Shown: positions 389 to 64,000 of the stretch, one piece after another | How positions within the stretch are numbered: position 1 is the first letter of the stretch | Layout: each line of letters starts with the position of its first letter | NCBI GenBank assembly: GCA_030765065.1 | Contig: CM060980.1 | Coordinates: 57,024,364 to 57,088,363, forward strand | Source of the DNA: Deroplatys truncata | Taxonomy: Eukaryota > Arthropoda > Insecta > Mantodea > Mantidae | Length of the DNA: 64,000 nt | Direction: 5' to 3' | Translations under genes and position numbers: made by a program | The notes under the pieces: model-generated | What the model saw: the letters and a program-made list of their open reading frames with translations, nothing else | Told to the model about the DNA's origin: nothing | Database searches by the model: none

Positions 389-1137
389 TCATGACTTTCT
401 CTTCTCTTGTACGAACTATTTTTACAAATGCTTATTCTCTATGTGCTTCATGTTAATCGAGATATCGAGATGTTAATCTTATTGCTAATTTTCTTGTAGA
501 TGAAAGGGGAATTGGTAGGCTTTAAGCGATAGTCACATATCTTAAGAGCTGGTTGCTATGTGTAGTATTCCATTCTCTTTGCATTACAAGGACAAAAAAT
601 GTATATGACATAAATTGTGTATTTTAACGCGATCTACATTTTTTGTGTAGCAAAATGTTGTCCATCTCTTATGGTTTACCAGTTATGCAAAAGTCGTTCA
701 CAATGAAGAATACTTTTGGAGACATTCCCAGAAAATTCAAGATATACATTTTATTTGTCATGAAAGTATTTTGAATATATGCTATTTTAATCAAAATCGT
801 TATAGCCATTTTTGAGAAAATTAAAATTTTCGAAAAATGTTCCATGTAAAGGGTAATCTGTGGTGGGGGGATTTTCTTGAAAACCTTCGTGTCGCATCTC
901 TGGTAAATACTGAACCTAAATACCAAGTTTGGTGTTTATCCGACTGTTCGTTTCTGAGTTATGCTGTTCACAGACACACACACACACATACACACACACA
1001 CACGGACATGTTTCCAAAATTGCTTTTTTGGATTCAGGGGCCTCAAAACATATATTTCCGGTGAAATCTCGGTATCAAATTTTTGGGTGGAATACAATAC
1101 TTCCCCTACTTACTGTTCGTAGTAGAGAAAGTAAAAA
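389..1137 (+). mobile_element. family H repeat (HINE-like), forward copy
   Basis: Non-coding interspersed repeat. It enters at the internal ATGACTTTCTC motif, so the first roughly 20 bases of the family are missing. It runs through the conserved body, an (AC)n tract at about 972-1004 and the 3' end, a TAGTAGAGAAAGTA-type terminus. It aligns by eye with the full copy at 14319-15228. The short frames across it (for example SELCCSQTHTHT) recur in every copy and simply translate the repeat. No function is implied. Confidence 0.85.
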
Positions 1138-1745: not shown

Positions 1746-1876
1746 TTATTTTCTCTATTACCTAAAGTAAGTAAGGGAAGTATTGTTTTCCACCCAAAAA
1801 TTCGATATCGAAATTTCATTGAAAATACTGCTTTTGAGGCACCCTGATTAAAAAAAACCTTTTTAGAAAAAGGTCC

Positions 1877-1915
<39 letters not shown>

Positions 1916-2597
1916 GTGTATCTGTGAACAGCTTAACTCAAAAACGAAAAGTTGGAAAAATACCAAACTTAGTACTTAGGTTCAGTACTTTACAAAGATG
2001 AGACATGAAGATTTTCAAGAAAATGCTTCCACCCCAGACTACCCTTTACATGAAAGATATTTCAAATTTTTTAATTTCTAAAAACTATTCTTAACGATTA
2101 TACATATATAAATTTTCTGGGAATAGCCTTTTAAGTCCACTTCATTTGGAAGAAATTTTTATATAATCTTGTATGTGGTAAACGTTAAGCGCTAGACGAA
2201 AATGTACTACACAAAAAATGTAGATCTCTTTAAAAGATGCAATTTATTTCAAATAAGTTTCTTTATGGCATAAGCCATTTCTGAGATATTCTTAATCAAA
2301 TATTCGAATTATTAGTTTCTGGCCATTCTGTTAAGTCCTGTCAACATTCAGTTGTTTGTCCCGATTGCATGAAAACTGTATGGAATTTAAGGCCACCGTA
2401 TAGCATCCCGTTCTTAAACATTTGACTATCCCTGTTCTTTTTGTATCCATAACGAAAAGTGTAATTTAGCTATTTTTGTAAAGGTTTATTTGAGTTAAAA
2501 TATAGTAAAAAAATAAGCTTTAGCAAGAATAGTTTGTATACCAATTAATAAACGATAGAGGGTAGGGGAAGCCATGTGAATCTATCACATCAAATTT
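1746..2597 (-). mobile_element. family H repeat, reverse copy
   Basis: Starts with the reverse of the 3' end (TTTTCTCTATTACC), has a long (GT)n tract at about 1881-1912, and ends GTGAATCTATCACATCAAATT, a diverged version of the family 5' terminus. It is older than the copies at 14 or 62 kb, judged by more mismatches. Non-coding. Confidence 0.85.
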
Positions 2598-3876: not shown

Positions 3877-4714
3877 TACTTTCTCTACTACGTAGAGTAA
3901 GTAGGGAAGTATTGCATTCCACTCAAAAATTCGATACCGAGATTTCACCGGAAATACATGTTTTGAGACCTCCTGAATCCAAAAAAAGCATTTTTGGAAA
4001 CATGTCCGTGTGTGTGTCTGTGTGTGTGTGTCTGTGTGTCTGTGAACAGCATAACTCAAAAACGAACAGTCGGATAAGCACCAAACCTGGTATTTAGGTT
4101 CAGTATCTTCCAGAGATGCGACACGAAGGTTTTCAAGAACATCCCCCCACCCCAGACTACCCTTTACATGGAAGAGTTTTCGAAAATTTTAATTTTCTCA
4201 AAAATGGCTCTAACGATTTTGATGAAAATATCATATGTTTAAGATAATGTCATGAGAAATGAAATGTATATCTCGAATTTTCTGGGAATGTCTCCAAAAG
4301 TATTTTTCATTGTGAACGACTTTTGCATAACTGGTAAACCATAAGAGATAGACAAAATTTTACTACACAAAAAATGTAGATCGCGTTAAAATACACAATT
4401 TATGTCATATACATTTTTTTTGAGTGAACCATTTTCAAGATATTGCTTGTTATTCCCTTAAACTTTCCAATACTTATACTTTTTCTCACATGGGAATTTG
4501 TTATTCATTTTTTGTCCTGGTAATGCAAAGAGAATGGAATATTCCACATAGCAACCAGCTCTTAAAGTATTTGACTATTGCTCAAAGCCTTGCACCTACA
4601 AGAAAATTAGCAATAAGATTAACATGTCGATGAACATGAAGCATATGGAGAATAAGCGTTTGTAAAAATAGTTTGTACAAGAGTAGAGAAGGTCATGTGA
4701 GTGTAACACATCAG
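3877..4714 (-). mobile_element. family H repeat, reverse copy
   Basis: Nearly full length. Left end TTACTTTCTCTACTACG, (GT)n at about 4008-4041, right end AGTGTAACACATCAG. It is close to the copies at 9.3 and 25.7 kb. Non-coding. Confidence 0.9.
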
Positions 4715-4956
4715 CTCTAAAAGCCTGTGTCAACTTGAAAAATGTATGTTTCATTTATGACTTTTTCTGCTTACTATACAAAGTATTCTTTTTCTTCTAT
4801 CTACCTCTTGTTAAATAAGATAGCCTTCATTGCACATTTACACACTTCGTTATAGATATGAGGAATGTAACAGGCTAAAGCGAAAGTTAGCAATTTTAAA
4901 AAGAGAGTTGCTATGTTAAGCCTCTTTGCTTGTTCACGAGAAAAATACGAATACGA

Positions 4957-5235: not shown

Positions 5236-5297
5236 AAATACGAATACGACGTACCACCTGAAAACGTATAAATAAATGTTCAATCAATAACAAGAAT

Positions 5298-9277: not shown

Positions 9278-9436
9278 ATTACATTCTCTACTACGTATAG
9301 TAGGTAAGTAGAGAAGTATTGTATTCCACCCAAAAATACGATACCGAGATTTCACCGGAAATATATGTTTTGAGACCCCCTGAATCCAAAAAAAGCATTT
9401 TTGGAAACATTTCCGTGTGTGTGTGTGTGTCTGTGA

Positions 9437-9469
<33 letters not shown>

Positions 9470-10158
9470 TGTGAACAGCATAACTCAGAAACGAACAGTC
9501 AGATAAACACCAAACTTGGTATTTAGGTTCAGTATCTTCCAGAGATGCAACACGAAGGTTTTCAAGAAAATCCCTTCACCCTAGATTACCCTTTACATGG
9601 AACATTTTTCGAAAATTTTAATTTTCTCAAAAATGGCTGTAACATTTTGATTAAAATATCATATGTTTAAGATATTTTCATGACAAATGAAATGTAAATC
9701 TCGAACTTTCTGGGAATGTCTCCAAAAATATTCTTCATTGTGAACGACTTTTGCATAACTGGTAAGTCATAAGAGATAGACAAAATTTTACTACACACAA
9801 AATGTAGATCGCGTTAAAATACACAATTTATGTTATATACATTTTTGTTGTTGAGTGAACCATTTCGAGATATTGCTTGTTTTTCCCTTAAATTTTCCAA
9901 TAGTTATACTTTTTCTCAAATGGAAATTCGTTATTCATTTTTTTTGTCCTGGTAATACAAAGAGAATGGAATACTCCACATAGCAACCAGCTCTTAAAAT
10001 ATTTGACTATCGCTTAAAGCCTACCAATTCCCCTTGCATCTACAAGAAAATAGCAATAAGATTAACATCTAGATTATCATGAAGCATATGGAGAATAAGC
10101 GTTTGTAAAAATAGTTTGTACAAGAGTAGAGAAAGTCGTATGGGTGTAACACATCAGA
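9278..10158 (-). mobile_element. family H repeat, reverse copy
   Basis: Near complete: left end TTACATTCTCTACTACG, a long (GT)n tract at 9415-9468 broken by CTGTGAAT, right end GTAACACATCAGA followed by a T run. One of the best-preserved reverse copies. Confidence 0.9.
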
Positions 10159-10704
10159 CTTTTTTTTAGACTGACAAAGCACTCTCCTCATATTTGATTT
10201 GCTGTAAAAAACCGTTACTAGCGTTAATGACCTGATGTTTGTTGAAGTGATTGATCACGTTAACAGTTTCTGTAAGATAATAAGAGATTAGAGCACGTAT
10301 CATGCCTTCAGCCGAAGTAATGCCTTGCACTTTATTAAAACTTCAAACGGAAGAAAAAAATGTCAAATAAATATCTGGCTGTGAATGGTACGGTATAAAT
10401 AATTTCCCTTGTGCGTCCCAACCCTTCTCTTTATTTTACCTTTGAAGGGGAAGGACTGGGACTTCGTCTCAGGTTCCGGACTTCATGCTGCGACGAAATA
10501 CCCTAAACTTTCCAAGTGTCAATGTTACAATGTGACAAAACACGCAATACTCTCTGTAAATCATACCAAAGCCTTACACCGCAGGAAGAGGAATAAATAC
10601 AACAATGAAATACTAGTTTATCTAGAATTCAATCAAGCAAAATGACTTATCTAAGGGCAACACTGGAGTACCAGCTATTAGAGAGAAAAACAAAGTAAAA
10701 AAAA
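10159..10704. other. unassigned sequence
   Basis: No gene seen. It begins with the T run next to the H copy and contains short open frames without family resemblance. Confidence 0.5.
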
Positions 10705-11115
10705 AGTATGTGTTATATTCACCTGACCCTCTAAGACTTATTAGTGGGCACACAAATTATTCGAAATTTCATTTTCCTATCTACTTAATATTAATCCAGA
10801 TAAACCTTTCAAAAAATAGCTGCATTACACTTTTCGTTGTAGATACAAGTGGAGTAGCGATAGTTAAATGTTTAAGAACTAGTCGCTATACGCTGGTCTT
10901 AAAATTCCATACTTCTTCCGTGACATAGCGAGGAACAACTGAATGTTGACAGGGTTTTAAAAGAATGATCAACTATTGAACAATTCGAACCATTAGTAAC
11001 GGAAATATTTCGTAAGTGGTTGATGCCGCAAAAATTATTTGAAATAAATTGTGTGTTTTAAAGAGATGCAATTTTCTGTGTAGGACATTTACGTCTGTTA
11101 CTTAAAGTTTACCAC
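10705..11115 (+). mobile_element. family H repeat, diverged 5' half
   Basis: Matches the 5' half of the diverged copy at 40519 (TATATTCACCTGACC, then AATAGCTGCATTACACTTTTC, TAAGAACTAGTCGCTATACGC). It stops near TTACTTAAAGTTTACCAC. It represents a subfamily in which the 5' region reads CTTATTAGTGGGC instead of TCTTGTACAAAC. Confidence 0.7.
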
Positions 11116-11954
11116 AAGACCGTCTCTATCTACAGGCCTGAATAAGCGATTCGTGACGTAACAACGCGAGGCCCATGTACTAAGGAATTTCAACCATAAA
11201 GCAATGTTTTACAAGCATTTTTAGCTTTTTTGAGCAGAAATAAGTACGCAGTCATAAAGGTTATTGTGCGTTAGTAAATAAATGGAAAGCATACTTCCCA
11301 TAGTTTGTGACAGCCAATCTTCTTACCTTCTCAATGCCAATAAGTCTACAACTTTCGTTTTTATTCTCCTTGCAGCTCATAGCAACCTGTCTTTACTTAA
11401 TAATACAGTAGTTTTTTTTAGAAGGATGTTAGATATTACTTCTGTTATATTTCTCACCAAGGCAGCACTTGGCAATTCGCAATCACTAGCGTTGAAATCA
11501 GCACCAGTGTTATAATAGTCACACGTCTCGATACCTAAATGTAAAAATACGTTTTTCTGGTTTTCTACTTAAGGTATTATTAAGTTCATATGGTTCAGAA
11601 ATTAAACACTAAAATATAATGAATGTGCATGCCCTCATATCATACGTGAACTGCTGATGGCCACTCCAGGTTGCTTAACTGTATTCTGAAGTAAGCACTA
11701 ACTAAAAAATTTTGAAATTCAAAACCCATTCTGGGCTCACGGTATAACATTTTCCTACAATTTTCACTCTTATATTAAGTAAGCACAACACTTAATTCGG
11801 GTAATTGTATTCTACTCCTTTACATAAATGTTCCTACATTCATAAACTATATTTTGAAATGTGCTATAAAAATTCATGCCAGTTTCTCAAAAGTGTTTAT
11901 ATACATTGAGAAGACTTTTTTTACCAATTATTGCAAGATTATATACATTTCCTT
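11116..11954. other. unassigned sequence
   Basis: AT-rich, no gene or recurring repeat recognised. Confidence 0.45.
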
Positions 11955-12372
11955 TCAAATGATGAGGACTTCACAGGATATTCTCAGAAAATTCAAGAAA
12001 TATGTTTTATTTGTAATGTAAATGTTTTTAATCTGTGGTATTTTCATCAAAACCATTTGAGCCATTTTTCATAAAATCAAAAACTTCGAAAATGTTTCAT
12101 GTAAATGATACTTTGGGGTGGGGGATTTATTCGAAAATCTTCGTGTCGTATCTTTGGAAGATGCCGAACTTAAATACCAAGTTTGGTATTTATCCGAGTT
12201 TTCATTTTTGAATTATTTTGTTTACAGACACACATGCACACACGCAGACATTTGTCTAAAAATGCTTTTTTGGGATTAAGGGACCTCAAAACAAAAATTT
12301 ACGGTGAAATCCCGATATCGAATTTTTGGGTGGAATGCAATTCCTTTTCTACCTCCGTGGTAGAGAAAAAAC
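11955..12372 (+). mobile_element. family H repeat, 3' half
   Basis: A forward fragment from the AATGATGAGGACTTCAC block to the 3' end (CTCCGTGGTAGAGAAAA). It has a short (AC) tract, TGCACACACGCAGAC, at about 12235-12250. Confidence 0.75.
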
Positions 12373-14293: not shown

Positions 14294-14318
14294 CAAAGCG
14301 ATTACTTTACAAAAAAAA

Positions 14319-15228
14319 TCTGATGTGTTACACTCACATGACTTTCTCTACTCTTGTACAAACTAATTTTACAAACGCTTATTCTCCATCTACTTCATGT
14401 TAATCGAGATAAACATTTGCAGACTCTATCTTATTGCTAATTTTCTTGTAGATGTAAGGGGAATATATATTTACAAGGGCAATATAGAAATACAGTAGCC
14501 TTTAAGCACATACATATCTCTTAATAGCTGGTTGCTAGGTGCAGCACCATCCCCTTTGCCACAGATTAATACTCTTTGCATATACAAGACAAAAAAATGA
14601 ATAACGAATTCCCATTAAAGAAATTAAGTATTGAAAAATTTAACAGAATAACAAGCAATATCTCGAAAATTGTTCACTCAACAAAAAAAATGTATATGAC
14701 ATAAATTGTGTATTTTAACGCGATGTACATTTTTTGTGTAGTAAAATTTTCTCTATCTCTTATGGTTTACCGGTTATGCAAAAGTCGTTCACAATGAAGA
14801 ATACTTTTGGAGAAATTCCCAGAAAGATATACATTTTATTTGTCATGAAAATATCTTAAACATGTGATATTTTAATCAAAATCGTTAGAGCCGTTTTTGA
14901 GAAAATTAAAATTTTCGAAAAATCTTCCATGTAAAGGGTATCCTGGGGTGGGGGGATTTTCTTGAAAACCTTCGTGTCGCCTCCTTGGAAGATACTGAAC
15001 CTAAATACCAATTTTGGTGTTTATCCGAATGTTCGTTTCTGAGTTATGCTGTTCACAGGCAGACACACAGACACACAGACAGAAACACAGACACACTCGG
15101 ACATGTTTCCAAAAATGCTTTTTTTGGATTCAGAGGGTCTCAAAACATATTTCCGGTGTAATCTTGGTATCGAATTTTTGGGTGGAATACAATAGTTCCC
15201 CTACTTACTATACGTAGTAGAGAAAGTA
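14319..15228 (+). mobile_element. family H repeat, full-length reference copy
   Basis: A complete 910-bp forward copy. Order: 5' terminus TCTGATGTGTTACACTCAC; internal ACTTTCTCTAC at 14341; a body with GGTTTACCGGTTATGCAAAAG and TTTTTGAGAAAATTAAAAT; an impure (AC)n/(AG) tract at 15057-15098; a TTTTGGATTCAG block; CGAATTTTTGGGTGGAAT; a hairpin TACTA-TACG-TAGTA just inside the 3' end; and the end GTAGAGAAAGTA, inverted relative to the 5' internal motif. The left flank is an A run. No obvious target duplication. No protein-coding potential. The best copy for defining the family. Confidence 0.9.
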
Positions 15229-18049: not shown

Positions 18050-18851
18050 TCTGATGTGTTACACTCACATGACTTTCTCTACTCTTGTACAAACTGTTTT
18101 TACAAACGCTTATTCTCCATATGCTTCATGTTAATCAAGATATCGAGATGCTAATCTTATTGCTAATTTTCTTGTAGATGCAAGGGGAATTGGTAGGCTT
18201 TAAGCGATAGTCAAATATTTTAAGAGCTGGTTGCTATGTGGAGTATTCCATTCTCTTTGCATTACCAGGACAAAAAAATTGAATAACGAATTCCCATTTG
18301 AGAAAAAGTATAAGTATTGGAAAATTGAAGGGAATAACAAGCAATATCTCGATAATGGTTCACTCACAAAACAAATGTATATGACATAAATTGTATATTT
18401 TAACTCGATCTACATTTTTTGTGTAGTAAAATATTGTCTATCGCTTATGGTTTACCAGTTATGCAAAAGTCGCTCACAATGAAGAATACTTCCCAGAAAA
18501 TTCGAGAAACACATTTCATTTGTCATGAAAATATGTTAAACATGTGATATTTTAATCAAAATCGTTCGGGCCATTTTTGAGAATATTAAAATTTTCGAAA
18601 AATGTTCCATGTAAAGGGTAATCTGGGGTGTCACATCTCTGGAAGATAGTGAACCTAAATACAGTTTGGTGTTTATCCAACTGTTCGTTTCTGAATTATG
18701 CTGTTCACAGACACACATAGGGACATGCTTCTAAAAATGGTTTTTTGGATTCAGGGAGCCTCAAAACATATATTTCCGGTGAAATCTCGGTATCGAATTT
18801 TTGGGTGGAATACAATACTTCCCCTACTCACTATACCTAGTAGAGAAAGTA
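18050..18851 (+). mobile_element. family H repeat, forward copy
   Basis: 5' TCTGATGTGTTACACTCACA, 3' CCTAGTAGAGAAAGTA. It has a small deletion near 18629 (a stretch between GGGGTG and TCACATCTC is missing relative to other copies) and only a short AC tract. A non-coding, recent-looking copy. Confidence 0.9.
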
Positions 18852-18969: not shown

Positions 18970-19185
18970 GTTTTTTTTTATTTATGGGCGCTCTTTAACT
19001 ATATGGTCATTAGCGTTCCATTCTAAATTGGGCGTGAAACATCGGAAATTTTGCTCAGAGACTTCTATTCGGTTAATCTACGATACGGGACCACCAACTT
19101 TACTCCCTTCAGAAGCAATCCATGCTAAGGATTTCTACCCCCGATAAATACATCCATGGTACCCCTAGACCGAGGAAGACGACCC
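18970..19185 (-). mobile_element. tRNA-derived SINE, family A, degraded
   Basis: Shares TTTATGGGCGCTCTTTAACT, ATTGGGCGTGAAA and AAGGATTTCTACCCCCGA with other family A copies. Internal deletions remove the box B region. The head remnant GAGGAAGACGACC is at the right. Confidence 0.75.
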
Positions 19186-25126: not shown

Positions 25127-26776
25127 TTACTTTCTCTACCATCTAACTATAGGAAGTATGGCCATTGTGAAAATCCACGTTTTAAGGCCCCTTGATTTCT
25201 AAAGAAAACCTTTTTCGAAAAAAGTCCATGTGTGAACTTTCTGTATGTATATATGTGTCTGTCTGTGAACAACAAACTCAAAAACGAAATTGAATAAATC
25301 CCAAACTTGGGATATTTAAGTTCAGTACCTTCCAAAGATATGACACAAAAAGATCAAAGAAAGGCGCCTACCCCAAACTATCTTTATACGGAAAACCTTT
25401 AATTGTTTTTTGATTTTCTAAAAAATGGCCTTAATGATTTTAATTAAAATACTCATATTTTTATTAATACTTAAGATGTTTATTTCAAAATAAAATGCAT
25501 ACCTTGAGTTTTCTGGGAATAGAATGTAAAGTCCTCTTCATTCAGAAAGAATGTTGTACAGTCTCATATAATTGATAAACCATTAGGTGTAGACCTAATG
25601 GTTAAAAAAACTTACAACGTAGAAAATGTAAATTTTCAAACAATACGTTGTCATTGTTTTGAATTTTTTAATGCTTTCTACTTTCTCTACTACGTATAGT
25701 AAGTAGGGGAAGTATTGTATTCCACCCAAAAATTCGATACCGAGAGTTCACCGGAAATATATGTTTTGAGGCCCCCTGAATCCAACAAAATAGCATTTTT
25801 GGAAACGTGTCCGTGCATGTGTCTGTGTTCTGTCTGACTGTGAACAGCATAACTCAGAAACGAACAGTCGGATAAACACCAAACTTGATATTTAGGTTTA
25901 GTGTCTTCCAGAGATGCGACACGAAGGTTTTCAAGATAATCCCCCACCCCAGATTACCCATTACTGTAACTTTTTCGAAAATGTTAATTTTCTCAGAAAT
26001 GGCTCTAACGATTTTGATTAAAATATCATATATTTAAGATACTTCATGACAAATAAAACGTATATCTTGAATTTTCTGGGAATGTCTCCAAAAGCCTTCT
26101 TCATTGTGAACGACGATTGCATAGCTGGTAAACCATAAGAGATAGACAAAATTTTACTATACATAAAATGAAGATCGCGTTAAAATACACAATTTATGTC
26201 ATATACATTTTTTATTGAGTGAATCATTTTCGAGGTATTACTTGTTATTCCTTTAAATTTTCCAATACTTATACTTTTTCTCAAATTCGTTATTCATTTT
26301 TTTAGTCCTGGTAATGCAAAGAGAATGGAATACTCCACATAGCAACCAGGTCTTAAAATATTTGACTACCGCTTAAAGCCTATCAATTCCCCTTGTATCT
26401 ACAAGAAAATTAGCAAGAAGATTAACATTTCGATTAACATCGAGAATAAAAATTTGTAAACATAGTTTGTACAAGAGTAGAGAAAGTCATGTGAGTGTAA
26501 CACATCAGATTTTTTTTGAAGTGCCATCTTCTTCAGTTGTTTAGCGCGATGTCACGGAAAGAATATGGGATTTCAAGACCAGCATATAGCGACCGGCTGT
26601 TAAATATTTGGCTACCGCCGATTTCCTGTATCCTGTGTCTACAACGAAATATGAGTAAACTATTTCTGCAAATGTTTATCTCTTTTAACATGTAGTCGTT
26701 TGTAAGAGTAGTTTGTAGAAGCTGTATAAAAGTAAACGATAATGGCTAGAGAAGTCATAAGGAACGTGACACATTA
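25127..26776 (-). mobile_element. family H repeat, reverse, split by a second H copy
   Basis: An older copy in two parts: 25127-25678 and about 26510-26776. The left part starts TTACTTTCTCTACCATC. The right part resumes in the body (GCGATGTCACGGAAAGAATA) and ends TAAGGAACGTGACACATTA. The interrupting 25679-26509 copy is better preserved, which fits the nesting order. Confidence 0.8.
25679..26509 (-). mobile_element. family H repeat, reverse, inserted copy
   Basis: A complete 831-bp copy from TACTTTCTCTACTACGTATA to GTGTAACACATCAGA. It sits next to a run of T. Only a short (GT) tract. Very close to the 9.3 kb copy. Confidence 0.9.
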
Positions 26777-33240: not shown

Positions 33241-33811
33241 AATAATAATAAAACAAGCACATTGCACCACTCTGTTATTTGTGAAGACAGCTATGCCGGA
33301 AAAAGTATATTTTGAAAAAAAATCTGATGTGTTGCATTCACACGACTTTCTCTACTCACTCTTCGACAAAATATTCTTACAAACCCTTATTACTTTGTCT
33401 ACTTCTCGTTAATCGAGACAAACTTTCATTACTGAATGCGTTGCAGGTATAAGTAGAATACAGTAGGCTAAAGCAATAATCATATTACTACGTATAATAA
33501 GTAGGGGAAGTATTGTAGTCCACCCAAAAATTCGATACCGCGATTTCACCGGAAATACATGTTTTGAGGCCCCCTGAATCCAAAAAAATTTGGGAATATG
33601 TCCGTGTGTGTGTCGGTGTGTCTGTGAACAGCGTAACTCAGAAACGAACAGTCGGATAAAAACCAAACTTGGTATTTAGGTTCAGTATCTTCCAAATATG
33701 CGACACGAAGGTTTTCAAGAAAATCCCCCCACCCCAGACTACCCTTTACATTTTTCGAAAATTTTAATTTTCTCAAAAACGGCTCTAACGATTTTGATTA
33801 AAATGTCATAT

Positions 33812-34283
33812 TGTGGCATGTGCACAGATATTAATGTTAAGACGCTCTCTGGACTCCGAAGCACGGCAGTTTGTCCGAGTAGGGGCGATTCAGGGGAAAC
33901 AGTGTCATTGGAAGGGATATGGCGTTACTGACGCCAACTTAGCATGGCTTCTTGTATCATTCTGTGAGTAGGCTTCGAGTGAGTCAGACGGGCAACTGCC
34001 TAAGACATGGCGTCCTCGCCCGGCAGACACATGGGGTAAGAAATCTTTTATAATAAATCTACCAGCTATCCATTCTCTTGCAGTTTTAATTATGATAGTG
34101 TAGAGTTCCTTTCCTCTCCCTTAAGCCAGGCATTGTGTTGGTGTATTAATTATTTAGAGTTAACTTAGCTGCGTCCTCGTCGTTGCCTCGAGTTTAAAGT
34201 TCTTTGTTTGGTTAACGATCCCTCTCGCAAGCGAGTTGCTCCCATCTGCATTTCTAAGTTAATATAATGTGAGGCATACGACA
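33812..34283 (+). repeat. 5' LTR
   Basis: 472 bp, bounded TGT...ACA. Contains AAGCACGGCAGTTTGTC, TTTTATAATAAATC (a combined TATA-like and polyadenylation-like stretch at about 34046) and CTCTCGCAAGCGAGTTGC, a short inverted repeat. Nearly identical to the 3' copy. Confidence 0.93.
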
Positions 34284-37200
34284 ATTGGCGGTGGCGCCAG
34301 GTATAATTGAATTTGTTGTGAGATTTTCAAGTGCAAAATTTTTTTTCCCTCTAAAATGTAACGGATTCTAGCCCTCCACGTGGTCGCGAAAAATCTAAAT
34401 TTGTTTCTGGCTTAAGGGTAAGGATTTTTATGATTTAATTTGTGATTCTCATCTTCTAAATTTTGTTACTATCATATCTGAAAGTCTGGTTTCGAAATTT
34501 TAATTTTGAGCTCATTTTTGCATTTTTCCATTGTCTGCCGGCGTGACGCTAAAACTTCTGACTCCATTTTCCCCTTGTTTTGGCTTCATTTCCTTTAAAT
34601 TATATCACTGTATTAAGTTCTTCGTGCTGGTCATTTTGAAGTATAAAGTTTTGAAAATTGTGGAAAGTGAATTGTGAAATTGGGTGATATTTGTGTCGTT
34701 GATAGCGTGGTTGCGTGTGTGAGTTGATTTACGTAACATTGCATTCTAGATTGCGTCATATTGAAAGTATTAACGACTTGAAAGTGCAACAAATTATTTC
34801 AAAATTCGTGTGTTGCGTGTTTAAAATGTACGTGTGTATAAAAAGTGTGGCATCTGTTTGAAATATTTAAAGTAATAAAATGAAAGAGGTCACGTATATA
34901 TATTGAAAAATTTTTGCATTGTACACTCGCGGAAAAATAGTGATAATAATAATGCTGATAATTTTGCTTCACCGTTGCCCAGTTTGGTTTATTTAATTAC
35001 GCAATGCATATTTTTAGGGGAAAAATGCTTCATAATTACTCATGTAAGTAAAAGTTTCAGGAGCCTACCAGCCTTGCCAGTATCTTCACCTAATTAGGTT
35101 TGATGTGCTTCTAATATGGACCAGTACGATGTGGATGTTGATGAACCAGCTGTACGTGTGTTACCAGATTTTGGAAAATTTGCACTGGAATTTTGTGGTA
35201 AACGAGTAAGAGAAAAGAAAAAAAAACCATAACCTGTAAGTATGTAAACATTGTGAGTGCTAAAGTTTGGACGAATGAAACAGTTTTACAACTCACACAG
35301 GTATGCTAAATTTATTGTTTCACTGACTGATGCTTAATTATGCTTTGCTTTTCAGGAATGTGTGATATGACTGTCTCTGCTAAATTAAAAGTGTATTATT
35401 ATTTTGGGGTGTAACTTAAATTTTGAATTATGTTTTGGGAACTGCAAATCATTTGTTTTGTTGTTGTGTTATGCTGCAGGAATGTGTTTCAGGTGTATTA
35501 TGTGCTTAATTGAGCTTTCATTTTCAGGAATGTTCTGTGACAGTATTGTTTTGAGTAATGATGTGAAGTTTTGTTGCATTCGATTTGATATGATTTGACT
35601 CGATTTGATTTTGGGTTTCATAATGATGCTGTGATTTTTATTTGCAGAAAATTGTTGCATGAATAGTGTGTGTATGTATGTGTGTATTTGAGGTTATGTG
35701 ATATATGTGAGATTTGCCTCGGTGGGAGTGCCAAAGTGTAACCCCGATGGCATAGTGTGAGGTGATATGAGAAATATGAGTTGAGATTTGCCTCGGTGGA
35801 AGTGCCAAAGAGTAACCCCGACGGTGTTAATGAGATGAGGAGAGATGAGAAGAGACGAGATGATGTCAGCTTCGGTGGAAGTGCCACAGTGTAACCCCGA
35901 CAGTTGTATGATTTCAGAGATTTTGGCTTATTGGTGTTGCTGTAACGTGCCCAGTATAGCGTGTGTGATGAATTCACACGAGAGATTAAATGGATGGAAA
36001 TGATTGTAATGTGAATAATTTTTTTCTCTCTGTTTCTGCAACAAGTTTATTACCATCTTAGATAGCAAATTTTAATACCACCTGTTTTCCAGCTTAATTT
36101 TCATTTGGAGGATGTGGATGCAACAGTATACTGTCATGTTATTTGTGTCATTCCTGAATTGTTAATGTGATTTCTTGAAGGTTATGCCTATGTTAGATGT
36201 TTTGAATTTGCAGCATGTTAAATGAGACACGTCAGTGAAGATGTTTTGTTTTGAAGAGAAAATTGAAAGTTGCGATAAAGATGATGATGATTGAAGTAAT
36301 GATCGAGATTGCACTATTACTGATGATGATTATGAAAGATGTTGATAATAATGAGATGAGAAAGATAGTGATGTGGACGAGAAGTTGTATTAGTGACAAG
36401 AGTTGGACAATAGTAGTTGAAAGCATGTCACGTGGCGTAGTTTGGAGATGTATTGTGGATGTAGTTTGTAGTGATGCATACACTAGTTTGAGTAGATAGT
36501 TAAGTGAGTGTTGTGTGTAATTTGGGCCATGGTCAGTGTGAATGAGTTCATTTCATTGTCATGTGTGATTGTTTTGTAAGTGCACTTATTTTCTTTTGTT
36601 AGTGATACCAGCTGGTCATTAAGATTTAATATTGGGATCCCAAATAAGGTTATGTTTCTTTTCTGTCATGTTCATGTATTCTGAGTCTGTTTTACTGTTT
36701 TATTTGGTTTGTGAAGCATTGTGAGTTAAGTTTTGGATGGCAACTCTCTATAAATTCTAGTTCTTATACCAATTTGTACTTATTGTTTTTTCTCTTTCTT
36801 TGCCCATGTCAAAAGAATTTTTAGTGTAAACTTTTCAACCTTTAAAATCTTTAATTTTACATGACATACCGTTCTTTTTATGTGTGATTGTTTGTGGGAG
36901 CACCTTTTTTATTGTTTGGTGGTTTTGTTCTAGTATTTTGCTGTGGCGGAGCTCGAGAACATCCAAGAGCATCCCCGGAGCACACCAGAAGTCAAGAAAC
37001 ACCACAGGGAAGCTGTCGGGCAGCCACTACACTGCCGTGGCATAAGGAGCCACTATGTCGGGGGGCAGTCCAAGCCAGCGACTGCCCACCCTGTTGTCAT
37101 CACCAGAGACCTGCAGTGATAATTCTACACCAGGACAAATCGTCGTTGTGGGCACTGTATACAATCACCCACAAAGAGTTGCAGCAGACCATCGATATTT

Positions 37201-37499
37201 TGCGCAGTGTAGTGTGCCTGTGAACTGAGGCAGCGTGGTGTGTGCGTGTGCGGGGTGCTCAAGATAAGTGCCTTAACAATATTAGTCGACAGCACTTAAG
37301 GTTCTCGAAACTCTACTCCGCCCAGTAACATTGTGTCGTCATCTGGGTGCTTATCACACATGTATATTATTGTTATATTTTGGTTCATCACACATGTGTA
37401 TGTCATTTTTGTATGTCATTTTGCTTTGTTCTTTTCATGTTTATTATATTTATTTTCCTTATGTCGACGAGGGCGTCGACTTCGGTGGCCAGGGGTAGA
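34284..37499 (+). other. non-coding interior of the LTR element
   Basis: Holds only short frames, the longest 111 codons at 36888-37223, with a hydrophobic start and a Pro/His/Cys-rich middle, unrecognised. Notable contents are three copies of a GCCTCGGTGGAAGTGCC-type motif at 35711-35903 and three CAGGAATGT motifs after pyrimidine tracts at about 35350, 35475 and 35522. A purine/TG-rich stretch encodes low-complexity Met/Ile peptides at 36251-36499. Confidence 0.6.
35711..35903 (+). repeat. three-copy 40-bp motif inside the LTR element
   Basis: Copies at 35711-35750, 35785-35824 and 35865-35903 share TCGGTGGAAGTGCCAAAGTG and GTAACCCCGA with few changes. Spacing is about 74-80 bp. Each contains GGTG and a downstream ACCCC that could pair. 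Role unknown. Confidence 0.8.
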
Positions 37500-37971
37500 T
37501 GTGGCATGTGCACACATATTAATGTTAAGACGCTCTCTGGACTCCGAAGCACGGCAGTTTGTCTGAGTAGGGGCGATTCAGGGGAAACAGTGTCATTGGA
37601 AGGGATATGGCGTTACTGACGCCAACTTAGCGTGGCTTCTTGTATCATTCTGTGAGTAGGCTTCGAGTGAGTCAGACGGGCAACTGCCTAAGACATGGCG
37701 TCCTCGCCCGGCAGACACATGGGGTAAGAAATCTTTTATAATAAATCTACCAGCTATCCATTCTCTTGCAGTTTTAATTATGATAGTGTAGAGTTCCTTT
37801 CCTCTCCCTTAAGCCAGGCATTGTGTTGGTGTATTAATTATTTAGAGTTAACTTAGCTGCGTCCTCGTCGTTGCCTCGAGTTTAAAGTTCTTTGTTTGGT
37901 TAACGATCCCTCTCGCAAGCGAGTTGCTCCCATCTGCATTTCTAAGTTAATATAATGTGAGGCATACGACA
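37500..37971 (+). repeat. 3' LTR
   Basis: 472 bp, same ends as the 5' LTR. Visible differences are CACATATT for CAGATATT, GTCTGAG for GTCCGAG and AGCGTGG for AGCATGG. Preceded by the polypurine-like AGGGGTAGA and followed by the ATAT duplication. Confidence 0.93.
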
Positions 37972-39114
37972 ATATGTTTAAGAGATTGTCACAATAAATG
38001 AAATGTATATTCGAATTTTTTGGGAATGTCTCCAAAAGTATTCTTCATCGTGAACGACTTTTGCATAACTGGTAAACCACAAGCGATAGACAAAATTTTA
38101 CTGCACAAAAAATGTAGATCGCGTTAAAATACACACTTTATGTCATATACATTTTTTTGTTGAGTTAACCCGTTTTCGAGATATTGCTTGTTATTCCCTT
38201 AAATTTTCCAATACTTATACTTTTTCTCAAATTCTCATTTTTTTTATGTACTGGACTTGCAAAGAGAATGGAATGCGCCACATAGCAATCATTGCTTAAA
38301 ATATTTGACTATCGCTTAAAACCTACCATATTCCCCTTGCATCTACAAGAAAATTAGCAATAACATTGACATCTCGATATATCGATTAACATGATGCATA
38401 TGGAGAATAAGCGCTTGTAAAAATAGTTTTACAAGAGTAGAGAAAGTCATGTGAGTTTAACACATCAGATTTTTTTTAAAAAGCGCTCGCTATGTGATGA
38501 CTTTGAAATCCAACAACTCTGCATGATCACGAAAAAAAAGAAGGAAAGAATGGCAACTTACCAATTGAAAAAGAAACATATGATAATTCAAACTAATAAC
38601 AGAGAATATCTTTAATAAACAATAGTTTAACAAAATCATTTGACATAAAGTGTGTGTTTTAACGCCATCTGCGGTTTATCACATACCTATTCAAAATTCG
38701 AGACGTATTCACAGGCTACTCCCAGAACACTCAAAATATATATTTAATTTTGTCATGCAAATATCTTAAACATACGGTGTTTTAACCAAAATCGTTTGAG
38801 CCATTTTTGAGAAAATTAAAGGTAACGAAAATGTTTCTATGTAAATGGTAGTTTGGGGTGGGAGGATTTTTTAAATCTTCGTGTTGCATTCTTAACATAA
38901 GAACCAATTAAATATATAACATACTTTTCGTTTTTGAGTTGTGCTATTCACAGACAAACAACCACAACCAGCCTCCCCCACACACATGGAGCTTTTTCTA
39001 AAAATTCCCTTTTTTGTTCAGTGAGTCTCAAAACCTGTATTTCGGTGAAATCTCGCTATCGAATTTTTGGGTGGGATAAAACATGGTTAAGTAGTAGAAG
39101 AAATAAAAATGGTT

Positions 39115-39232
39115 GTTTTTGATTCAGGGTACCTCATAAACATGCATTTATGGTTTAAATTTCGACATTAAATTTTTGGGTGGAGTACAATACTTTCTAT
39201 CTTAGTTAAGTATGTAGTAGAGAGAGTGAAAA
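39115..39232 (+). mobile_element. family H repeat, extra 3' end
   Basis: A second, more diverged 3' segment (TTTTGATTCAGGGTACC, TAAATTTTTGGGTGGAG, GTAGTAGAGAGAGTG) lies ten bases behind the 3' end of the outermost H copy. It is either a tandem 3'-end duplication or an independent fragment. Confidence 0.7.
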
Positions 39233-40518: not shown

Positions 40519-41487
40519 TCTGACGTGCTACATTCACATGACTTTCTCTAGCCTCTATCGCTTATTATGATTATACAAATTATTCTTACGAAGCTTATGT
40601 TTCCATCTACTTCGTTTTAATCGAGATAAAAATAGCTGCATTATACACTTCTTTATAGATACTAAAGGAATAGCGACAGTCAAATGTTTTAGTACTGGAC
40701 GCTATACGCTAGCCTTAAAATTCCGTACTGTTTCCACGACATCGCGAGAAACAGCTGAAAAACAAAATATTGGCTAAGTATTGACAATTCGAAACATTAA
40801 TAACGGATATATAGGAAATTGCCGATGCCACAAAAAAAGTTATTGGAAATAAATTGAGTGTTTTAAAGAGAACTAATTTGTTGTGTAGTACATTTTTGTC
40901 AATCGCTTATCGTTTACCAGTTATACAAGAATATACAGAATCCTTTCCGAATGAAAAGGACTTAATGGAATTTTAAGGCCAGCGTATAGCGTCCAGTTCT
41001 TAAACATTTGACAATCGCTGCTCTCTTTGTATTATCTATAACGAGATTGTAATATAGCTGTTTCTGCAAAGGTTTGTCTCTATTAAAATTAACTAAAGAA
41101 ATAAACTCTCACAACAACAACAGGCTGTTTCCAGAAAATTTAAGATATGCATTTTATTTGACATGTAAATATATTTAATATATGGAATTTTAATCAAAAT
41201 TTTCAAAAAATGTTCCACGTAAAGGGAAGTTGGAGGTGGGAGGATTTTCTTGAAAATTTTCAGGTTACATCTTTGGAAGATAGTGAACTTAAATATCAAG
41301 TTTGGTATACATCCGACTTTTGTTTTTGGGTTATGTTGCTCATACACACACACACACACACACACGGCGATAGGACCTTTTTCTAAAAATGATCTGAGGT
41401 TCAGAGGACCTCAAAACATATTTCCGGTGAAATCCCTATATCGAATTTTTGGATGGAATATAATATTTTCCCTACTTAGTGTATCTT
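40519..41487 (+). mobile_element. family H repeat, diverged subfamily with inverted insert
   Basis: 5' TCTGACGTGCTACATTCACA with the CGCTTATTATGATTATAC subfamily block, an (AC)n tract at 41342-41365, and 3' CCCTACTTAGTGTATC. Between about 40970 and 41100 a stretch (AAGGCCAGCGTATAGCGTCC, AACATTTGACAATCGC) is a 5' segment of the same family in reverse orientation, so the copy contains an internal inverted duplication. Confidence 0.8.
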
Positions 41488-42477: not shown

Positions 42478-44080
42478 TAGTTTCTGTACTACTACCTATG
42501 GTAGAGGAAGTACTGTATTCTACCCAAAAATTCGATACCAGATTTCACGGAAAGGTGTGAGTATGTGTGCGTATCTGTCTGGAATAGTATAACTTAAAAC
42601 AATTATCTAATTGTTACATTCACAGGACTTTCTCTAATCATTCTTCAACAAAATATTCTTACAAAATTTAATCTTCTATCTACTTCATCTTAATCGAGAT
42701 AAACATGTGTAGAAACGGTTTTATTATATATTTCCTTGTAGGTACAATGGGAATAGTAGGCTTAAGCGATAGTCAACTTTTTTAAGAGCTGGACACTATG
42801 TGATGGCTTTGAAATTCCGTTCTCTTTGCATGCCCAGGAGAGGCCAAGAGAAAAAAGAAGAAGAACAGGAAGAAAGGAAGAATATAAAAAAACAATAACA
42901 ACTTGCTATTTCAGAAAAGTATATGTATTGGAAAATTTAAACCATTAACAAGGAATATCTCAAATAGCTAACTCCAAAAAATGTATTTGACATAACTTGT
43001 GTGCTCTTAGTAGATCTACATGTTCTATGTAGTAAGCTTTTGTCTAAATATTACGGTTTACCAGTTATATAAACGTCATTCAGAATGAAGAAGACTTCAG
43101 AGGCCATTCCTAGAAAATTTGAGATGCACATTTCATTGTAATGAAAATAAAACTAAATTATTTTAATCAAAATCTTTAAAACCGTTTTTGAGAAAATCAA
43201 AATTTTCGACATATTTTATACTAAGGATAGTTTTTGTTGGAGAGATTTTCTTGAAAATCTTCGTTTCGCATCCTTGGAAGATGTTGAACGTAAATACTAA
43301 GTTTGGTATTTAACCGACTTTGTTTTTAGAATTATGATGTTCACAGACTCACTCACCACACAAATAGACACACGGACTGTTTTATAATTTTTGTTTGTTT
43401 CGTGGAGCCTCAAAATGTGTTTTTCCGGTGAAATCTTGAAATGAATTTTTGGATGGATCGCAGTACTTTCTCGACTTACTAGTCGTAGTAGAGAAAGTGA
43501 AAGGTTGGTTAAATACCAAACCTTTTTGGTTTTTAAATTCATATCTTCCAAGGATGTTATTTTTATTTTCTCAAAAATGGCTCTAACGAGTTTGATTGCA
43601 ATACCATATGTTTAAGATATTTCCATGACATATATATAATATTGAATTTTCTGGTAATAGCTGTGAAGTTCTCTTTATTCTAAATTAATAAAACCTTCTA
43701 AACAAAAAATGTGGATCTCGTTAAACGACAGAGTTCGTCAAATAAAAGTTTTTATGGCGTTAAGCATTTCAGAGATATTCTTTGTTATTAGTTAACAGTT
43801 TTAAATGCTTGTAATGTTTTCAGGTGTTAAACCGTTATTATTTTTTCTCGTGGACATTCAAAGTGCAAGTAATTTCAAAGCCATTACATAACGATCCACT
43901 TTTAAGAAATCTGACTATCACTTTAGCCTACTGTATCCTTCTTATACCTAAAACGAAATGTGTAAATGCGCAATGAAGTTTTATCTCTATTAAAATAGAG
44001 TGGATAGAAGAATAAGCGTGTATAATAATAGTTTGTAGAAGACTGTAGCGAAGGTCATGTGAATGTAACAGAAAAGATTT
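42478..44080 (-). mobile_element. family H repeat, reverse, split by a forward H copy
   Basis: Left part 42478-42605 runs from TACTACTACCTATGGTAGAG to GTATAACTTAAAAC. The right part resumes at about 43501 (TTGGTTAAATACCAAACC) and ends GTGAATGTAACAGAAAAG. The two flanks join correctly in the family consensus order, showing the inner copy was inserted at an A/T run. Confidence 0.8.
42606..43500 (+). mobile_element. family H repeat, forward, inserted copy
   Basis: 5' TCTAATTGTTACATTCACAG, a body with GTAGGCTTAAGCGATAGTCAA, 3' GTCGTAGTAGAGAAAGTG. It lies inside the reverse copy at 42478-44080. No target duplication visible. Confidence 0.85.
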
Positions 44081-44205: not shown

Positions 44206-45168
44206 TCTGATGCGTTATACTCACATGAATTTATCTGCTCTTGTACAAACTATTTTTACAAACTCTTATTCTCTATCTACGATATTTCATATTAATCGAG
44301 ATAAACATTTGCAGAAACTATCTTTTGACATGCAAAGAGAATTACATTTTACACATAGCGACCAGTTTTAAAAATATTTGACTATGCTTAAGGAGTACTA
44401 TGTTCCCCTTTTTGTATTTGCAAGGGCAATATAGAAATACAGTAGCCTTTAAGCATAGACATATATCTTAATAGCTGATTGCTAGGTGCAGCACCATTCT
44501 ATTTGCCACAGGTTAATGCTCTTTGCATATCCAAGACAAGAAAATGAATAACGAATTCCCATTTGAGAAAATAAATATTGAAAATGTAAGGGAATAACAA
44601 GCAATATCTCGAAAATGGTTCACTCAACAACAAAAAATGTATATGACTTAAATTTTGTATTTTAACGCGATCTACATTTTTTGTGTAGTAAAATTTTGTC
44701 TACCTCTTATGGTTTACCAGTTATGCAAAAGTCGTTCACAATGAAGTATACTTTTGGAGACATTCCCAGAAAATTCAAAATGTACAAATAAATGTCAAGA
44801 CAAATAAATGTCATGAAAATCTCTTAAATATATGATGTTTTAATCAAAATCGTTAGAGCTATTTTTGAGAAAATTAAAATTTTCGAAAAATGTACCATGT
44901 AAAGGGTAGTCTGGGGTGGGGGGGATTTTCTTGAAAACCTCCGTGACGCATCTCTGGAAGATACTGAACCTAAATACCAAGATTGGTGTTTAGTCGACTG
45001 TTTGTTTCTGAGTTATGCTGTCCACAGACACACACACGGACATGTTTCCAAAAATGCTTTTTTTGGATTCAGGGGTCTCAAAACATATATTTCCGGTGAA
45101 ATCTCGGTATCGAATTTTTGTGTGGAATGTAATACTTCCCCTACATACTATACGTAGTAGAGAAAGTA
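44206..45168 (+). mobile_element. family H repeat, long forward copy
   Basis: 963 bp from TCTGATGCGTTATACTCACA to CGTAGTAGAGAAAGTA. It is longer than the reference because a segment near 44325-44400 (TGCAAAGAGAATTACATTTT, CACATAGCGACCAG) is an inverted piece of the family. It also shares the CAAGGGCAATATAGAAATAC block with the 14.3 kb copy, defining a subfamily. Confidence 0.87.
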
Positions 45169-59694: not shown

Positions 59695-60943
59695 TTACTT
59701 TCTCTACTACGTACCGAGTAGGTAGAGAAGGTAAGTATTGTATTCCACCCAAAAATTTGATAACGGTATTTCATCGGAAATACACGTTGTGAGGCCCCTG
59801 AATAAAAAAAGCATTTTTAGAAAAAGGTCCTCATATCTGAAAAACATAACCCAAAAACGAAAAGTCGGGTAAATAACAAACTTGGCATTTAGGTTCAGCA
59901 CCTTCAAAATATGTGACATGATTGTTCAATAAAATCCCCCACACTAAACTGCCCATTACATGAAACGTTTTTTAAATGTTTTTTATTTTATATAAAAACG
60001 TTATAACGATTTTGATTAAAATATCATATATTAAATATTTTTACGTGACAAATAAAATTTATATCTCGAATTTTCTGGGAATAACCTGTGAAGTCCTCTT
60101 CATTCGGAAGGAATTTTGTATAATCTTGTGTAACTGGAAAACGTTAAGTGATAGATGAAAACATACTACACAAGAATTGTAGATCTCTTTAAAATACACA
60201 ATTTATTTCAAATAACTTTTTTTTGTGGCATCGGCAATTCTCGAGATATGCGTTATTAATTGCTCGGTTTCTTCAATACCTTTGTCATTCTTTTCAAGTC
60301 GCACCAATTTTCAGATGTTTCTCGCTAATACATGGAAAGAGTATGGAATTTTAAGGCCAGCATCGTATGGCGTCCAGTTCTTAAACATTTTACTATCGGT
60401 ATTGGCTTTGTAGGCGGCGCGGTGGCCGAGTGGTTAGACCGCTTGCCTCCCACCGAGGCGGCCCGGGTTCAATCCCAGGGACCTGCATGTGGGATTTGTG
60501 GTGGACGAAGCGGCGTCTGGGCGGGTTTTCTCCGGGTTCTCCGGTTTCCCCCGCCATTCATTCCACCAACTGCTCCATCATCATCTTTTCTTTCATCCAT
60601 TTCACCAACATTTCGTTTCATCCCATACCAGGCATCAGGCTGATCACCCATCCTGGATGTTCTGTCTGATCCATGAGTGTCTGCTCCTTGACGGGCCTCT
60701 GACCCCAGGCACCCGCCTGTAAGTCCTGGGGGTGTAAGTCCTACATAAGAGGAGGGTAAACAGATAATGAATGAATGAATATTGGCTTTGTACTGGACCA
60801 AAATATGTAACGTGGCTATTTCTGCGAAGGTTTATATCGATTAAAATGAAGTAGATAAAACATTAACTTTCATAAGAATAATTTGTATACCCCGCTAATA
60901 AACGATAGGGAGTGGAGAAAGTTATGTGAATCTACACATTAGA
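59695..60943 (-). mobile_element. family H repeat, reverse, split by a SINE
   Basis: Left end TTACTTTCTCTACTACGTAC, no (GT) tract beyond a short remnant, right end GTGAATCTACACATTAGA. Split at 60412/60780 by the family D SINE. Both flanks rejoin exactly when one copy of the 13-bp duplication is removed. Confidence 0.87.
60413..60779 (+). mobile_element. tRNA-derived SINE, family D, full length
   Basis: 367 bp. The tRNA-like head GGCGCGGTGGCCGAGTGGTT has a box A (TGGCCGAGTGGTTAGA) and box B GGTTCAATCC. A GC-rich body follows (CCGGGTTCTCCGGTTTCCCC) and an AATG/GAAT repeat tail. The 13-bp duplication TATTGGCTTTGTA lies at 60400-60412 and 60780-60792. It lacks the 3' acceptor partner of a functional tRNA gene. 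Confidence 0.92.
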
Positions 60944-61615: not shown

Positions 61616-62354
61616 TCTGATGTGTTACACTCACATGACTTTCTCTACTCTTGTACAAACTATTTTTACAAACGCTTATTCTCCATATGCTTCATGTTAA
61701 TCGAGATGTCGAGATGTTAATCTTATTGCTAATTTTCTTGTAGATGCAAGGGGAATTGTTAGGCTTTAAGCTATACTCAAATATATTAAGAGCTGGTTGC
61801 TATGTGGAGTATTCCATTCTCTTTCCATTACCAGGACAAAAAAAAAAACCAGTAACGAAATCCCATTTGCGAAAAAATATAAAAAGTTGGAAAATTTAAG
61901 GGAATAGCAAGCAAATATCTCGAAAATGGTTCACTCAACAAAAAAAAATTATATTACATAGATTGTATATTTTAACGCGATCTACATTTTTTGTGTAGTA
62001 ACATTTTGTCTATCTCTTATGGTTTACCAGTTATGCAAAAGTCGTTCACAATGAAGAATACTTTTGGAGACATTCCCAGAAAATTCGAGATATACATTTC
62101 ATTTGTCGTGAAATTATCTTAAGCATATGATATTTTAATCAAAATCGTTAGAGCCATTTTTGAGAAAATTAAAATTTTCGAAAAATCTTCCATGTAAAGG
62201 GTAATCTGGGGTGGGGGGATTTTCTTGAAAATCTTCGTGTCGCATCTCTGGAAGATACTGAACCTAAATACCAATTTGGTGTTTATCCGACTGTTCGTTC
62301 TGAGTTATGCTGTTCACAGACAGACAGACACACATACGGACACGCTTCTAAAAA
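61616..62354 (+). mobile_element. family H repeat, forward, cut off after the AC tract
   Basis: 5' TCTGATGTGTTACACTCACA, conserved body, AC tract at about 62320-62342. It ends at CACGCTTCTAAAAA, where the next copy begins. The 3' block (TTTTGGATTCAG to GTAGAGAAAGTA) is absent and does not reappear after the second copy. Confidence 0.88.
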
Positions 62355-63061
62355 TCTGATGTGTTACACTCACATGACTTTCTCTAATCTTGTACAAACT
62401 ATTTTTACAAACGCTTATTCTCCATATACTTCATGTTAATCGAGATGTTAATCTTATTGCTAATTTTCTTGTAGATGCAAGGGGAATATGGCAGTATTTA
62501 AGCGATAGTCAAATCTTTTAAGAGCTGGTTGCTATGTGGCGCATTCCATTCTCTTTGTATGTCCAGGACATAGAAAAATGAATAAGGAATTCCCATTTGA
62601 GAAAAAGTATTGAAAAATTTAAGGGAATAACAAGCAATATCTAGAAAATGGTTCACTCAAAAAATGTATATAACGTAAATTGTGTATTTTAACGCGATCT
62701 ACATCTTTTGTGTAGTAAAATTTTGTCTATCTCTTATGGTTTTCCAGTTATGCAAAAGTCGTTCACAATGAAGAATACTTTTGGAAACATTCCCAGAAAA
62801 TTCGAGATATATATTTCATTTGTCATGAAAATATCTTAAACATGTGATATTTTAATCAAAATCGTTAGAGCGATTTTTGAGAAAATTAAATTTTTCGAAA
62901 AATGTTCCATGTAAAGTGTAATTTGGGGTGGGGGATTTTCTTGAAAACTTTCGTGTCGCATCTCTGAAAGATACTGAACCTAAATACCATGTTTGGTGTC
63001 TAACCAACTGTTCGTTTCTGAGTTATGCTGTTCATATACACACGCGCGCGCGCACACACAC

Positions 63062-63096
<35 letters not shown>

Positions 63097-63224
63097 CATG
63101 TTTCCAAAAACGCTTTTATTGGATTCAGGGGTCTGAAAACATATATTTCCGGTGAAATCTCGGTATGGAATTTTTGGGTGGAATACAATACTTACCCTAC
63201 TTACTATACCTAGTAGAGAAAGTA
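62355..63224 (+). mobile_element. family H repeat, full-length, head-to-tail with the previous copy
   Basis: 870 bp from TCTGATGTGTTACACTCACA to CCTAGTAGAGAAAGTA. The long CG/CA tract at 63041-63093 (CGCGCGCGCACACAC then (CA)n) is the longest in the family here. Confidence 0.92.
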
Positions 63225-63619: not shown

Positions 63620-64000
63620 TTTACTTTGACTACCATGTATAAGTAGAGGAAGTATTACATTCCGCCGAAAAATTATATACCCTGATTTCACCTGAAGCAC
63701 CCTAAATCCAAAAAGATATTATTAGAAAAACATCTGTGTGCATGTGTTTATGAACAGCAACTAGAAAATTTGGATAAGTAACAAACTTGGTATTTAATTT
63801 CAGGATCTTCCAAAGATCCCCACTCCTACTATCCTTTACATGGAACACTTTTCGAAATCTCTTATTTTCTCAAAATTGCTCTAACGGTTTTGATTGAAAT
63901 ACCACATATTTAAGGTATTTACATGAAAATAAAATCTATATCTGAGTTTTCTGGGAACAGCCTATGAAGTCCTCTCCATTCGGAAGAAATTATCTACAAT
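63620..64000 (-). mobile_element. family H repeat, reverse, running off the window
   Basis: Left end TTACTTTGACTACCATG, diverged body with ACGGTTTTGATTGAAATACC and TTTCTGGGAACAGCC. Continues beyond base 64000. Confidence 0.75.

Follow-up and report, generated by a model that had tools for sequence, protein, structure and literature searches.

The closest described systems to the repeat family considered here are Helitron2 and the DINE-1/HINE elements. Published Helitron2 elements have their 5' ATIR within a hairpin, at a distance of 0-2 bp from the 5' end, and their 3' ATIR directly upstream of a hairpin, 20-30 bp from the 3' end (PMC3627910, PMC5148889). DINE-1/HINE elements are reported to carry a subTIR near the 5' end and, later in the element, a 3' subTIR with a stem-loop after it (PMC4067079, PMC2374699, PMC7492417); in the account of DINE-1, a partial inverted repeat (IR) stands beside the 5' subTIR and a microsatellite lies in the 5' block (PMC2374699). 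Insertion of DINE-1 in D. yakuba is reported between TT, with the longer consensus WTTTT in eight of ten sites (PMC2374699), and the number of terminal Ts is described as variable in Helentrons (PMC4067079).

The repeat family termed here family H is, very probably, a non-autonomous Helitron2/Helentron-type rolling-circle transposon of DINE-1-like (HINE) layout, read on the opposite strand from that chosen in a first-pass annotation of the window (the whole 64,000-bp stretch of DNA that was analysed). The Helentron/HINE-like class proposed in that annotation is supported, and by more features than were listed there. Those that match the published class are the positions of the subTIRs, the IR by the 5' subTIR, the microsatellite of the 5' block, the variable terminal Ts, the T|T insertion and the lack of a target duplication. 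Family H looks like a candidate new family within the already known DINE-1/HINE class and is otherwise ordinary transposon biology. Its interest lies in the fact that a DINE-1-type family makes up a quarter of one window, and that its nested sites provide a check on the rule of T|T insertion without duplication.

Orientation and layout of the element

On the Helentron strand, which for the type copy is the minus strand, family H opens with T-ACTTTCTCTACT, which is followed by an IR of the GTAGGGGAAGTA type, the GT/GTCT microsatellite and a long AT-rich body, and it closes with AGTAGAGAAAGT, CATGTGAGTGTAACACATCAGA and a variable T-run. At the 3' end of the family, a short ATGTG/CACAT stem is followed by CATCAGA and then by the variable T-run. 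This layout is of the Helitron2/DINE-1 type, on the strand opposite to that of the earlier reading. In Helitron2/DINE-1 elements the 5' end is recognised by a subTIR at 0-4 bp and the 3' end by an inset subTIR with a stem-loop behind it, so that the end formerly called 3' is the true 5' end and the former 5' end is the true 3' end. The orientation first given is thus reversed: the subTIR 1 bp from the terminus is 5', and the inset subTIR with its stem is 3'. The strand correction matters for the search for a partner, since the 3'-terminal 60 bp, which are used for classification (PMC4067079), correspond to what had been taken as the 5' end.

The minus-strand order of features also places the hairpin formerly assigned to the 3' end in the 5' subTIR/IR region and turns the former A-run flank into the 3' T-run. 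Several details of the earlier description change their meaning accordingly. The ends TCTGATGTG...GTAGAGAAAGTA are present. The hairpin TACTATACGTAGTA also exists in the type copy, but it is one part of a longer possible subTIR/downstream fold on the 5' side. The (AC)n core does vary in length in the seven-copy alignment, but as GT/GTCT, its form on the opposite strand, it belongs to the 5' block and not to the centre (about model positions 135-170, as in block A of DINE-1). The A/T-run at the flank is real as a run, but its A-run is the variable T-run at the true 3' terminus. Added to these are the IR, the true 3' stem, the empty sites supplied by nested copies, and the T-run as a component of the terminus. 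In the type copy, a tandem-repeat search returned, besides the microsatellite, a single short repeat of 19 bp. The coordinates of the copies and of the features of the type copy are collected in Table 1.

Table 1. Family H copies in the window and features of the type copy; strands refer to the Helentron orientation.
Feature	Coordinates	Strand	Remarks
Copy with internal deletion	390..1133	minus	model 1-543, 637-838; 3' end eroded
Divergent two-ended copy	1747..2594	plus	
Full copy	3877..4715	plus	
Full copy	9280..10158	plus	GTAGAGAAGTA downstream of 5' subTIR
Divergent copy	10704..12371	minus	about 0.84 kb of other sequence inserted
Type copy, full length	14319..15228	minus	15228 = 5', 14319 = 3'
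Type copy, 5' subTIR ACTTTCTCTACT	15216..15227	minus	1 bp off 5' terminus
Type copy, IR region	15193..15213	minus	two overlapping partial inverted repeats of 5' subTIR
Type copy, IR partner GTATAGTAAGTA	15202-15213	minus	best-scoring in type copy, 10/12 pairs
Type copy, IR partner GTAGGGGAACTA	15193-15204	minus	position picked in 6 other copies
Type copy, GT/GTCT microsatellite	15054..15096	minus	5' block; variable from copy to copy
Type copy, 3' subTIR AGTAGAGAAAGT	14341..14352	minus	end 22 bp off 3' terminus
Type copy, 3' stem-loop	14323..14339	minus	ATGTG-agtgtaa-CACAT
Type copy, terminal/flanking run	14311..14318	minus	8 T (A on plus strand)
Full copy	18050..18851	minus	
Divergent host copy	25129..26721	plus	5' subTIR at 25129 after T-run; interrupted by 25679-26509
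Full copy, nested in family H host	25679..26509	plus	empty site 2
Divergent host copy Y	33323..39228	minus	interrupted by copy X
Copy X, nested in Y	33486..38469	plus	without about the first 9 nt; split by 4.16-kb LTR element
Divergent copy	40519..41483	minus	
Host copy	42478..44077	plus	interrupted by 42605-43499
Divergent nested copy	42605..43499	minus	ACTTTCTC/GAGAAAGT at 5' end; empty site 1
Full copy	44206..45168	minus	internal inverted stretch of element, about 0.1 kb
Divergent two-ended copy	59696..60943	plus	interrupted at 60400-60832
Copy B	61616..62354	minus	without model positions 1-114; directly downstream of A
Copy A, full	62355..63224	minus	head-to-tail with B
5' part of copy	63622..63985	plus	near window end

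Abundance and divergence

Searching the window with the type copy 14319-15228 returned 44 matching pieces (blastn, E 1e-5), and a profile built on seven full-length copies recovered 36 segments on both strands, which together cover 16,892 bp or 26.4% of the 64,000 bp (nhmmer, E 1e-3). The earlier estimate was about 25 copies and roughly a quarter of the window. The majority consensus of the seven-copy alignment measures 855 bp, and the seven full copies are 85.9-92.8% identical in pairwise comparison. By identity to the consensus, on which the seven profile copies weigh, the 36 segments form two groups: 13 lie at 0.90-0.96 and the other 23 at 0.70-0.84. A single old copy may contribute short segments to either group, as does one host copy whose segments score 0.93 (42482-42553) and 0.75 (43560-44072). 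The grouping suggests younger and older copies with common termini.

Within the 23 divergent segments, identity in the outermost windows is 0.86 (1-20), 0.85 (821-840) and 0.83 (841-856), and it falls to 0.62-0.73 in many windows of the right half; the window that contains the IR (21-40) stands at 0.77. Conservation is no special mark of the termini, since three interior 20-bp windows are equal or higher, with 0.90 (41-60), 0.88 (201-220) and 0.87 (341-360). The termini are thus well kept in divergent copies, though not uniquely so. One internal rearrangement was located: the inverted stretch 44327-44425 in copy 45168-44206 corresponds to model positions 649-744.

Subterminal repeats and predicted folds

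The inverted pair reported in the first-pass annotation is exact over 12 bp in the consensus and asymmetric, lying 1 bp from one terminus and 22 bp from the other. An exact match of this length between the first 14 and the last 60 nt was equalled by 2 of 20,000 letter-shuffled consensus sequences. In the counts of subTIRs and flanks, which include the truncated 5' end at 33477 and the eroded 3' end at 372 although neither is a true end, and which leave the 5' end at 25129 out of the 18 listed 5' ends, the inset (3') subTIR stops 22 bp short of the terminus in 14 of the 17 listed 3' ends and 21 bp short in one; in the remaining two the best match is weak and placed elsewhere. The exact 11-mer is found at the 3' subTIR in 7 of the 17 and at the 5' subTIR, 1 bp from the terminus, in 9 of the 18. 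No co-variation of the 5' and 3' subTIRs within single copies was seen by eye among the listed ends.

Summed over the 18 listed 5' ends, pairing between the 5' subTIR and the IR reaches 167 of 216. When the downstream bases are shuffled 500 times, the mean is 116.4, the sd 3.6 and the maximum 129. These ends are not independent cases, as the copies have common ancestry. The best partner of the subTIR varies in position, being 25 in six ends, 16 in five, the type copy among them, and others in seven. The consensus folds weakly at its 5' end (z -1.33; a shorter piece gives -0.63). The divergent copy starting at 43499 keeps ACTTTCTC/GAGAAAGT and folds well at its 5' end (z -3.48), and another divergent 5' end (window positions 1738-1790) folds worse than shuffles (z 0.94). 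At 25129, a very divergent copy still has ACTTTCTCTAC adjoining a T-run, with TAGGAAGTA downstream. The 3' stem is only 5 bp long, is exact as ATGTG/CACAT in 9 of the 17 listed ends when read by eye, and in the consensus has an energy no better than that of shuffles (z -0.06 and -0.86); two divergent copies give unexceptional values as well (z -1.52 and -0.79).

Target sites and alternative classes

A T precedes the element at 15 of the 18 listed 5' ends, and T follows the 3' end as the first base in 12 and as the second base in 14 of the 17, with 0 to 8 leading Ts over the 17 listed 3' ends; the first T of the element is indistinguishable from a T of the target. A WTTTT target, read from the two bases before the 5' end and the three after the 3' end, is exact in 6 of 12 two-ended copies and present at one mismatch or fewer in 11 of 12, compared with 0.9% and 7.8% of 20,000 random placements. 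Two-ended sets of 12 copies each served the WTTTT test and the flank comparison, together 13 different copies, as the former swaps in 33486-38469 for 40519-41499; the 33486 boundary was set from the profile and from nested-site alignments. In the flank comparison, matches of 2-12 bp are absent from seven copies, and the other five match only in T runs (four copies) or in one AT (one copy). T-only matches are expected from insertion into a T-run.

Three copies are nested in other family H copies, so that the family alignment supplies paralogous empty sites. The first (42605-43499 in 42478..44077) and the second (25679-26509 in 25129..26721) are old and loosely aligned, and neither has a duplication. 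At the third, copy X (33486-38469) entered host Y at an AT|TTT site, again without duplication, and its flanks, ...ATCATAT and TTTTTTTTAAAAAG, agree when put together with the ...TCAAATATTTTAAGAG of the family; the joined flanks contain 9 consecutive Ts, against 2-4 in the nine paralogous copies shown. When the joined flanks of 13 copies were compared with the window, a paralogous site was spanned for one, and the other two sites come from profile coordinates. Together with the WTTTT matches, the three duplication-free sites sustain insertion between T and T, a known trait of the class.

A consistent target duplication of 2-9 bp was looked for at the flanks and at the empty sites; in keeping with the earlier remark that no clear duplication was visible, no fixed one appears in the 12 two-ended copies or at the three nested sites. 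This finding, and the asymmetry of the inverted repeats, one placed 1 bp and the other 22 bp from its terminus, argue against a MITE with subterminal repeats derived from a cut-and-paste (DDE) transposon, which we consider very improbable even though family H is short, abundant and provided with an inverted pair, a Tc1-type transposase ORF is present in the window, and DINE-1 was itself first called a MITE with TT duplication, according to PMC2374699. Still less credible is a canonical Helitron (Helitron1) in the orientation first proposed, with 5'-TC and a hairpin near the 3' end. Read in that direction, the element does start with TC and has a palindrome near its other end, but that end is ...GAAAGTA and not CTRR, the insertion points read T|T along the Helentron strand and A|A along the other and not A|T, and Helitron1 elements are described in PMC3627910 without a 5' hairpin. 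A SINE-like or LINE-derived retroposon with the A-run as its poly(A) tail, for which the truncation of some copies and the A/T-run at one end might speak, is just as implausible, because the homopolymer, read in the direction in which it comes last, is T and not A, a consistent target duplication is absent, and Rfam at gathering threshold gives no match in the window.

Proposed transposition and copies with unusual starts

As a non-autonomous Helitron2/Helentron-type element, family H would be nicked by the Rep-helicase of an autonomous partner acting in trans, as is expected from its class; for a Helentron proper, this Rep-helicase would also bear an endonuclease. One strand would then be replicated or peeled from the 5' subTIR/IR hairpin onward, the 3' subTIR, stem and T-run would serve as the stop signal, and the single strand would be pasted into a T-rich site (WT|TTT). 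The two subTIRs may compete for pairing, such that the 5' hairpin opens only once the 3' end has been reached, an idea found in PMC3627910.

Two copies have unusual 5' ends. Copy X, at its standard AT|TTT site, starts at an internal TACTAC, a mimic of the normal TACTTT start, and copy B (61616-62354) has its start in an internal T-run, the TTTTT to which copy A is joined by its 3' end (both copies 61616-63224, minus strand). It is conceivable, though unlikely, that X and B are products of a mis-placed 5' start or stop in rolling-circle transposition, with the IR-hairpin and the mimic defining the 5' end; the alternative is ordinary deletion following insertion. If mis-placed starts were the cause, family H could be used to map what its Rep protein reads.

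Coding content and neighboring sequences

A regular-expression scan of all six frames of the window for Walker A and B motifs of PIF1 type was negative, and in a Pfam scan of 20 window ORFs only the Tc1-type transposase ORF scored above the curated cut-offs. This ORF (47952-48971, minus strand) encodes 339 aa without stops and contains DDE_3 and HTH_Tnp_Tc3_2 domains; its top protein match has 57% identity over 99% of the query, and the named relatives among the best 120 of 499 come from fishes, spiders (Araneus, Trichonephila) and the fungus Rhizophagus.

The window, which looks like repeat-rich animal DNA, contains other repeats, some of them within or beside family H copies. The LTR element inside copy X (33812-37973) has direct repeats (33812-34285 and 37500-37973) that are 99.4% identical and, as read by eye, TG...CA ends and an apparent ATAT duplication; a strong GC skew runs along this stretch. 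A second repeat family, possibly SINE-like, occurs at 4977-5247, 8185-8415, 14023-14305, 18981-19148, 30895-31098 and 50117-50322, with matches of about 170-280 bp and 73-83% identity to the copy at 14.0-14.3 kb, and it adjoins some family H copies. A tRNA-Leu-like sequence (60403-60486, plus strand; ARAGORN) inside the 60400-60832 interruption may be a putative SINE head. At 55166-55507, a 170-bp unit is present in two tandem copies that match at 97%.

Exact family H patterns had no match in the genome contig collection and none in the viral contigs except for one 18-mer, in contig L001, which came without a profile match and looks like chance. Of the 16 papers returned for the 11-bp subTIR strings, none concerns an animal transposon to judge by title or displayed abstract, and one names a bacterial Tn. 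A resemblance of the block after the family H microsatellite to Drosophila DINE-1 is no more than conceivable, and we give it no weight: short strings ascribed to DINE-1 were not found in print, and two short family H strings were found only in two unrelated papers.

Comparison with known systems

Helitron2, as described in PMC3627910 and PMC5148889, resembles family H in its 5'-ATIR, which forms part of a 5' hairpin and lies 0-2 bp from the end, in its 3'-ATIR, about 20-30 bp from the end and followed by a hairpin, and in its first base, T, with some of its families inserting after a T-run. It differs in that family H is known here from non-coding copies alone, without a RepHel-coding relative.

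HINE-Mo of the mite Metaseiulus shares with family H the 3' palindrome, the T-rich target, the variable number of terminal Ts and a target that remains unchanged, and its subTIRs, 2-4 bp from the 5' end, are comparably placed (PMC4067079). According to the same source, the mite subTIRs are palindromic, whereas that of family H is not by inspection, and the 3' subTIR lies 38-60 bp from the end in the mite but 22 bp in family H. Cg_HINE of the oyster likewise combines a 5' subTIR, an IR and a short microsatellite with a 3' subTIR and a palindrome, and its autonomous partner is likewise described as unlinked; the oyster elements carry satellite-like central arrays (PMC7492417), whereas the family H type copy shows only the microsatellite and the 19-bp repeat.

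In comparison with DINE-1 (INE-1) of Drosophila, family H differs in its 12-bp subTIR sequence, the 14 published ones beginning with TATACC, ATACCC or TACCC, and in its stem, which is 5 bp long as opposed to 7-11 bp (PMC2374699); tandem central repeats, a further point of difference, were not seen in the family H type copy. The two are alike, in the descriptions of PMC2374699 and PMC4067079, in a subTIR 0-2 bp from the 5' end with a partial IR beside it, in a GTCY-type microsatellite in the 5' block, in a 3' subTIR followed by a stem, and in insertion at TT, with the longer consensus WTTTT and no need for a duplication.
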